DNA of 37,739 bases from a virus. The stretch covers positions 1 to 37,739 of IMG/VR virus record IMGVR_UViG_3300027508_000016; one strand, written 5' to 3'. Both the position numbers and the translations under genes were made by a program. Under the pieces are notes generated by a model. That model did no database searches and was not told the origin of the DNA. It worked only from the letters and a program-made list of their open reading frames with translations. How positions within the stretch are numbered: position 1 is the first letter of the stretch; every line of letters begins with the position of its first letter. Shown one piece after another: positions 33,964 to 34,873 of this stretch.

Positions 33964-34037
33964 CTGAGTGTATGATAGTGGTAGTCACCGAGGTTTGGAA
34001 CCTTGTAGTGCAGGTTCGATTCCTGCCACTCAGACCA
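33964..34037 (+). tRNA. tRNA-Pro (TGG), first copy
   Basis: Acceptor CTGAGTG/CACTCAG, A73 and CCA; anticodon stem CGAGG/CCTTG with loop TTTGGAA; T-loop TTCGATT. A second tRNA with the same anticodon occurs at 37047. Confidence 0.94.
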
Positions 34038-34056
34038 AGTTTTGTAAGTGTCAGCA

Positions 34057-34208
34057 AGTAAAATCACGCTACTGTCAATGTTCTTCGAAGGCGTTGTGTA
34101 GTAAAAGGTCAATGGGTTCAACTCCCACCCTGCGGGAAACTGCAGGGGTCTGTAATGGTGACTGACTGGACAGAGCCCAAGTGACGTACCTCATGCCGTC
34201 CGGACTTG
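34057..34208 (+). ncRNA. tRNA-like element in permuted order (candidate)
   Basis: This non-coding stretch holds a canonical T-arm, TGGG (34113-34116), loop TTCAACT and CCCA (34124-34127). CCCTGC (34128-34133) then pairs with GCAGGG (34142-34147) across an 8-nt loop, the order acceptor-3' then acceptor-5'. A D-arm-like stem follows, TCTGT (34149-34153)/ACAGA (34170-34174). Flanking hairpins are CTAC and CAATG pairing with CGTTG and GTAG (34069-34101), and CAAGTGACG against CGTC and ACTTG (34178-34208). No anticodon can be fixed and no CCA is encoded. The arrangement resembles permuted tRNA or two-piece tmRNA genes, but no tag frame is convincing. Confidence 0.4.
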
Positions 34209-34225
34209 TTTAATCGGATAAATGG

Positions 34226-34235
34226 TTGCTATAAT
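34226..34235 (+). promoter_or_regulatory. Extended -10 promoter before tRNA-Leu
   Basis: TTGCTATAAT contains a perfect TATAAT (34230-34235) with the TG extended -10. The -35 is weak (TTGTTT at 34206-34211, 18-base spacer). Transcription would start about 20 bases before tRNA-Leu. Confidence 0.65.
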
Positions 34236-34264
34236 TGAGGGGCAACTACTTACAAATTCAATAT

Positions 34265-34342
34265 GCCCCCATGGACAAATTGGTAAAGTCGACTCTCTCA
34301 AAAGGAGTAGTTCTCTCTGTTCGAATCAGAGTGGGGGCACCA
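34265..34342 (+). tRNA. tRNA-Leu (CAA)
   Basis: Acceptor GCCCCCA/TGGGGGC, A73 and CCA; anticodon stem ACTCT/GGAGT with loop CTCAAAA; T-stem TCTG/CAGA with loop TTCGAAT. The variable region is short for a leucine tRNA. Confidence 0.9.
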
Positions 34343-34427: not shown

Positions 34428-34456
34428 TTGACAATTGGTTGGTCTTTGTATATAAT
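34428..34456 (+). promoter_or_regulatory. Consensus host-type promoter inside the tRNA array
   Basis: TTGACA (34428-34433), 17-base spacer, TATAAT (34451-34456): perfect elements 19 bases upstream of tRNA-Tyr. Confidence 0.9.
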
Positions 34457-34474
34457 GGGGACAAGAGATAAGAA

Positions 34475-34562
34475 GGATGATGCCCCGGTCGGCGGTCTGT
34501 AAAACCGTTACCTCAAGAGATCGGAAGTCAGGTTCGTGGAGCGTTACCATCATCATCCACCA
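34475..34562 (+). tRNA. tRNA-Tyr (GTA) with divergent T-loop
   Basis: Acceptor GGATGAT/ATCATCC, A73 and CCA; anticodon stem CGGT/ACCG with loop CTGTAAA; long variable region. The T-arm appears as GTGG, loop AGCGTTA, CCAT, lacking the usual TTC and A58. The D-arm is also short. Confidence 0.85.
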
Positions 34563-34873
34563 GATCCCGTTACCATTTTCGTTAATAATGGCGTTTGATT
34601 AGCGACAGAGATCCGGTGGCAGAAGACCGTTAGCGTGAGGATGGAAACTACCCTTGCAGACTCTGATAGGCAGAATCCTAACTGCACACAGACATATAGA
34701 ATAAAATGGATGGACAGAGTAACTGCTCAATTAGGGGCTTGTGTGGAAACAAGTAGCCTATTCTAATAAAAAGGTCTTAATGGAGGAATATCCGGTGCAA
34801 GACTTTAAACTAGCACAAATAGTCTCTGAATGTTTGCTGATTTTAACTGCGCCAATAAAATCAGCACGAATTT
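34563..34873 (+). other. Gene-free, hairpin-rich stretch between tRNA-Tyr and tRNA-Asp
   Basis: A 311-base interval without a credible gene. Hairpins seen: CCATT/AATGG (34573-34577, 34587-34591), TGCAG/CTGCA (34655-34659, 34682-34686) with inner TAGG/CCTA, ATTAG/CTAAT (34730-34734, 34763-34767) enclosing CTTGT/ACAAG, and a perfect 9-bp stem GCTGATTTT/AAAATCAGC (34836-34844, 34857-34865). None has a terminator T-run. The word TGGACAGAG is shared with the permuted element near 34166-34174. It may be one folded RNA or a long processed spacer. Confidence 0.5.

Follow-up and report, generated by a model that had tools for sequence, protein, structure and literature searches.

A conserved structured RNA of phage tRNA islands that is predicted to self-associate

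A conserved structured RNA element was found between two tRNA genes in a virus record of 37,739 bases, which was analyzed at its full length and is called the window here. According to the best reading of the sequences, the element is a new RNA, a phage tRNA-island structured RNA that is predicted to self-associate; no homology with GOLLD or ROOL was found. We give a probability of about 0.66 to the following reading: the element is a stable non-coding RNA gene, carried as a cassette of the tRNA array, which would be excised along with tRNA processing, would hold a docked elbow and would form dimers joined through the P6 loop. The element has two domains. The 5' domain contains a T-arm, an optional acceptor-like stem and a D-arm-like hairpin bearing GG, arranged in a permuted order, and the 3' domain contains a hairpin with a self-complementary loop (Table 1).

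The window carries T4-like genes (tail sheath, portal, major head protein and an SbcC-like subunit) and 22 tRNA genes called by ARAGORN, all on the plus strand. The end of tRNA-Pro (34037) and the start of tRNA-Leu (34265) are separated by 227 bases, in which nothing was called by ARAGORN and nothing by Rfam, and this is where the element sits. The sequence-only reading of this DNA had proposed a unit at 34057-34208. These bounds were too narrow; the true unit spans about 34040-34256 and is closed by the two strands of P1. A covariance model matched the window at 34041-34185 with 118.6 bits and an E value of 1e-29. In addition, a TTGTTT-18-TATAAT sequence is present at 34208-34236, within the 3' domain of the element and upstream of tRNA-Leu, and may double as a promoter.

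Table 1 Positions of the element, its predicted parts and the flanking tRNA genes in the window, with the basis of each assignment.
Feature	Position	Strand	Basis
tRNA-Pro, directly upstream of the element	33964-34037	+	ARAGORN
Whole RNA element, predicted mature RNA UUUUG...CAAA	34040-34256	+	Ends shared with 108 distinct relatives
P1 closing stem, 5' strand TTTGTAAGT	34041-34049	+	Partner 34248-34256; covaries
P2, 5' strand GTCA	34050-34053	+	Partner TGAC 34182-34185
HA, variable-arm-like hairpin, TTCGAA at tip	34068-34102	+	Seven pairs changed on both sides
HB, T-arm TGGG-TTCAACT-CCCA, 4 bp	34113-34127	+	Outer pair covaries (UA:27 / CG:24)
HC, acceptor-like stem, GAAA cap, 8 bp here (usually 7)	34128-34147	+	7/7 modelled pairs change on both sides
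HD, D-arm-like hairpin GTC/GAC (34148-34150 with 34160-34162), GG at 34157-34158	34148-34162	+	Stem pairs change on both sides
Conserved CTGGAC ... CCAAG	34166-34181	+	Near invariant
P2, 3' strand TGAC	34182-34185	+	Partner GTCA 34050-34053
P6 hairpin, stem CCG/CGG, holds the self-complementary sequence	34196-34217	+	CCCG/CGGG, CCCA/TGGG, CCTG/CAGG, CCTA/TAGG in relatives
Palindrome GTCCGGAC, candidate for a kissing loop; shares its first G with the P6 stem	34198-34205	+	Palindrome counts in relatives
P7 hairpin GTTGC/GCAAC	34225-34246	+	GTTGC/GCAAC, GTGCC/GGCAC, GTATC/GATAC, GTTCC/GGAAC, GTACC/GGTAC in relatives
P1 closing stem, 3' strand ACTTACAAA	34248-34256	+	Partner 34041-34049; covaries
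tRNA-Leu, directly downstream of the element	34265-34342	+	ARAGORN

Comparative support for the secondary structure

When the window sequence was folded alone, the fold was no better than those of its shuffles (z = -0.41). A single-sequence fold is uninformative here, so the case for structure is made by comparison and not by energy. Relatives were parsed by landmarks, which gave 108 distinct sequences of 200-241 nt, mostly 215-230 nt. Two alignments were used, one of 62 sequences by landmarks and one of 52 sequences by MAFFT (A3). In A3, 95.1% of the pair cells were paired, and 18 of the 30 pairs had changed on both sides. The covariation score was 0.467, compared with 0.178 +/- 0.008 after shuffling and no more than 0.141 with slid partners. 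Compensatory changes back P1, P2, HA, HB, HC (7-8 bp), HD, P6 and P7.

The closing stem P1 lies between TTTTG... and ...CAAATT, and both of its strands change length together among the relatives, where it appears as GTAAGT/ACTTAC, GAGAG/CTCTC, GTTAAAGT/ACTTTAAC or GTTGTAGT/ACTACAAC. In P2, GTCA is found with TGAC or TGAT in 85 versions, and GTTA with TAAC in 15. Two alternative pairings, GTCAC/CTGGAC and GTCAC/TGAC, were without covariation support, and the exchange of GTCA/TGAC for GTTA/TAAC favors P2.

The relative L005, which was reached through its SbcC-like protein, keeps the Pro-to-Leu interval, and compensatory changes have given its helices a different sequence: CCCTGC/GCAGGG of the window is replaced by GGAATC/GATTCC, and TGGG/CCCA by CGGG/CCCG. 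The sequence-only reading had named a T-arm and a pairing of CCCTGC (34128-34133) with GCAGGG (34142-34147), and had suggested that homologues be aligned for covariation in the latter. The letters of both were read correctly, and in the alignments of homologues both the T-arm and the acceptor-like helix show compensatory changes; the acceptor-like helix reaches 8 bp when an inner G.U and a G-C pair are counted, and is closed by a GAAA tetraloop. The D-arm had been placed on a TCTGT/ACAGA stem, a pairing that is lost in L005. The D-arm-like stem is GTC/GAC instead, which is kept in relatives as GTCY/RGAC (GTCT/AGAC, GTCC/GGAC) or GCAG/TTGC with GG in the loop, and also as TCTC/GAGA. Among the distinct versions compared, the forms of HA, of HC/HD and of the 3' part are combined differently in some sequences, which indicates that the modules reassort.

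These data bear on the simplest alternative, that the interval holds an ordinary tRNA in decay or inverted repeats that arose by chance. Its location in a tRNA array, the retained T-arm and the ordinary single-sequence fold would all agree with decay. However, more than 100 distinct relatives carry compensatory changes in nearly every helix. Decay, which had been named beforehand as a better explanation that would overturn the proposal, is refuted by this covariation, and this alternative keeps almost no probability.

Relation to tRNA, tmRNA and other structured RNAs

By its predicted helices, the topology is that of a permuted tRNA that has been opened elsewhere and whose acceptor end is closed: a variable-arm-like hairpin is followed by the T-arm, the acceptor-like stem and the D-arm. 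The T-loop reads TTCRANN (UUCRANN) in 107 of the 108 distinct versions, and all 108 have GG in the D-arm region. In tRNA, the elbow is formed by contact between these two parts, the T-loop and the GG of the D-arm (reviewed in PMC4810234). In the element, the T-loop and the D-loop would dock into an elbow of this kind.

The sequence-only reading took the order of these arms as the hallmark of a circularly permuted tRNA gene or a two-piece tmRNA. In such a gene, the loop between the acceptor strands would be excised, and the pieces would act as a tRNA or a tmRNA. The order of T-arm, acceptor-like stem and D-arm-like hairpin is real, and the three helices covary; the assignment to a permuted tRNA or tmRNA gene does not follow. 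The likeness to two-piece tmRNA lies in the same order of T-arm, acceptor 3' strand, acceptor 5' strand and D-arm and in the T-loop TTCAACT (UUCAACU). Genuine two-piece tmRNAs in aquatic phages have already been published (PMC9004378), and permuted tmRNA genes with the tag ANDELFALAA were called by ARAGORN in two of the contigs with the element (L144, 3570-3979; L154, 7099-7470). In contrast to these, the acceptor-like stem of the element is closed and dispensable. What lies between its strands is a small capping loop of 3-10 nt, which takes the form of a GNRA tetraloop in 51 of the 62 versions, and not an intervening sequence that is processed. The stem is missing outright in 14 of the 108 versions, in three different forms (L313, for example), and the purpose of the RNA therefore cannot be that of a charged tRNA or a tmRNA. 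There is no room for a tag reading frame upstream of the T-arm, and CCA is absent after the acceptor-like 3' strand. Similarly, no anticodon arm was found; the would-be strands lead into P2 and P1, and ARAGORN called no tRNA there. The tmRNA models that had been recommended as a check gave no match to an Rfam tmRNA family on the element even at E = 10. We regard a permuted tRNA gene or a two-piece tmRNA as very improbable. The earlier remark that neither CCA nor a tag is evident agrees with an element that has no CCA, tag or anticodon, and the guess of something new outside both classes was a good one.

GOLLD (RF02032) and ROOL are, like the element, structured phage RNAs close to tRNA islands whose function is unsettled. 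They form homo-oligomers that are partly held by kissing loops, and covarying palindromes have been reported for GOLLD (PMC12286853). The element differs from them in its length (about 220 nt, whereas GOLLD often exceeds 800), in its secondary structure, in having no Rfam match, in the tRNA-like elbow inside it, and in its position as a cassette tightly between tRNAs. GOLLD was found in 10 of the 28 long records that carry the element (G001, G005, G007, G008, G010, G012, G014, G016, G019 and G023), at varying distances, and its matches lie beside the element and never on it. The GOLLD match in L147 encloses a tRNA. The stable RNAs C and D of T4 are also small stable RNAs of a T4-like tRNA cluster; however, no similarity to T4 sequences was seen by eye, and the model finds nothing in T4. 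The yjdF riboswitch has been reported to take a tRNA-like overall shape (PMC9142559) and is a bacterial non-tRNA RNA. It acts in cis on the translation of a protein gene, whereas the element is a free-standing unit between tRNAs.

Self-complementary loop, excision and possible functions

The element, known from its sequence, has the self-complementary, covarying loop that is expected of a homo-oligomer. Of the 43 distinct P6 loops, 41 contain a perfect palindrome that is 6 nt or longer, compared with an average of 12.7 and a maximum of 23 of 43 in single-letter shuffles, which ignore the relatedness of the sequences; the palindromes nonetheless differ in sequence. Where the window has GTCCGGAC, the homologous site in relatives reads CTCGAG, GCCGGC, CCCGGG, GTCGAC, TCCGGA, CTCGCGAG, CCTAGG, ACCGGT, CGGCCG or CCGGCCGG. 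At least nine different palindromes are found at this one position, and TGTGCACA is found in the divergent L311. In type II, P6 hardly varies (CGGCCG), and the lone type III loop has CCGG only.

Neighboring letters that are complementary cannot form pairs inside a single chain. A loop whose palindrome changes from one relative to the next and is still a palindrome therefore speaks for two molecules that pair with each other, an argument also made for OLE and GOLLD (PMC12286853). The element probably self-associates through kissing P6 loops, and two molecules would be joined by the palindrome in the manner of the kissing loops of OLE, ROOL and GOLLD. If this reading is true, a dimer lost when the palindrome is broken would be restored by a swap from GTCCGGAC to GCTCGAGC. 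At the tip of HA, few sequences depart from TTCGAA, and the tip is palindromic again as TCTAGA in L246 and TGGCCA in L369. This tip (UCGA; CUAG in L246; GGCC in L369) is possibly a second kissing loop.

All 1834 tRNAs around the 108 distinct versions lie on the strand of the element. Upstream, a gap of 2 nt from the end of the tRNA is the most frequent; the downstream gaps are mostly 5-8 nt, and the tRNA directly upstream is of about 20 kinds. Tight gaps on the same strand, as between tRNA genes in arrays, suggest excision by tRNA processing. Maturation of the 3' end of the upstream tRNA, together with RNase P at the downstream tRNA, would cut the element from the tRNA transcript, with cleavage at its frame AG↓UUUUG ... 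CAA↓AUUCA (cuts at the arrows). Both ends match the RNase E consensus RN↓WUU (PMC5222698), as a match to a short consensus only. Other array sequences have the same frame as the element and differ inside, and the comparison suggests that the terminal frame may be a general excision signal in phage tRNA arrays. Sequences unrelated to the element, with an AGTTTTG...CAAATT frame and a closing stem, were seen in L090, L101, L221, L228, L285 and L297 (141-150 nt), a family with 14 pattern matches. Unrelated RNA-like sequences with the same frame and a closing stem are also present in the phage tRNA arrays of L205 and L240 (80 nt), L207 (65 nt) and L311 (112 nt).

The fixed ends, the many different neighboring tRNAs, the mosaic modules and the frame shared with other sequences could also be those of a mobile or selfish element, such as a cryptic ribozyme, a degenerate intron or a recombination site of the array. 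However, exactly one copy is present in every long contig with a match, no gene is interrupted, no intron or ribozyme family was matched at the gathering cut-off, and it is the RNA pairing, with G.U pairs among it, that is conserved. A mobile element is quite unlikely.

Under the preferred reading of an excised, dimeric RNA, the dimer might show its tRNA elbows to an elbow-reading factor, such as RNase P or a T-loop modification enzyme, a role that we hold to be doubtful. Otherwise, the elbow would serve only as a tertiary clamp inside a scaffold RNA. A surface for an elbow-reading factor would be the more interesting and the less likely of the two. In the most divergent copies (L367-L370), the ends, GTCAGCAAG, CCAAG-TGAC and P6/P7 are retained and no canonical T-arm is seen, and the elbow may thus not be essential. 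The same copies speak against an elbow-mimic decoy, which would inhibit a host defence or an RNA enzyme acting on tRNA. A decoy would agree with a T-loop and GG that hardly vary whereas the acceptor-like stem can be lost, and with a single copy in phage tRNA arrays; however, an RNA without an anticodon loop cannot decoy anticodon nucleases, and no target has been identified. We consider a decoy unlikely. A further reading is put forward tentatively: the element may represent a new phage RNA class in which a circularly permuted, closed tRNA elbow is carried on a self-assembling RNA, with the HA tip as a second contact giving chains, rings or cages in place of dimers, and may be the first recognized of several phage tRNA-array RNAs that share one excision frame.

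In most readings, a phage tRNA array is a list of tRNAs separated by short gaps. The element shows that such a gap can be the site of a conserved structured RNA gene, one that large aquatic phages of diverse kinds keep in a single copy. The element is a small system that can be synthesized to study why phages encode self-associating RNAs beside tRNAs. Its predictions are testable: a discrete RNA of about 215 nt, a dimer through one palindrome and an elbow contact.

Distribution and further features of the array

The pattern GGTTCAANTCC-N(20-50)-CTGGAC-N(2-20)-CCCAAG gave 92 matches in viral contigs, nearly all of which were true homologues on inspection. The same pattern gave 27 matches, in unrelated taxa, among 84,980 bacterial and archaeal genomes, a far larger collection, and none of the 27 was recognized by the family model. 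With a second pattern, 91 of 91 loci checked among the matches listed hold one element. Exactly one copy was found in 28 of the 31 long records searched by the model; three relatives chosen by the SbcC-like protein had no copy. Other RNA patterns led to eight records, five of which hold one copy, and seven further records chosen by protein have none. The element is common in uncultured aquatic phages and is not universal.

BLASTN of the region gave no match in cultured phages. Similarly, model R1, run with stricter filters by which weak matches could be lost, gave no match in the cultured phages whose major capsid proteins are closest (DLP_6, phiN3, phiM12, Melnitz, Mosig, S-SCSM2R and S-SKS1), nor in two phages reached through the phosphoesterase next to the element and in T4, which makes ten cultured phages in all. 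No Rfam family matched the element, and no description of it was found in a literature search that mostly excluded subscription papers and preprints.

Two other sequences were observed downstream in the same array. A perfect TTGACA-17-TATAAT promoter (about 34430-34458) lies directly upstream of a tRNA-Tyr(GTA)-like sequence at 34476-34564, which has a non-canonical T-arm, was not called by ARAGORN and is nearly the same in L005. A second conserved structured RNA is located at 34560-34770; it has no Rfam match and occurs in about 20 distinct versions in viral contigs. Its hairpins show compensatory changes relative to L005, where CCATT/AATGG is replaced by CTACTTT/AAAGTAG and CTTGT/ACAAG by CTGGT/ACCAG.
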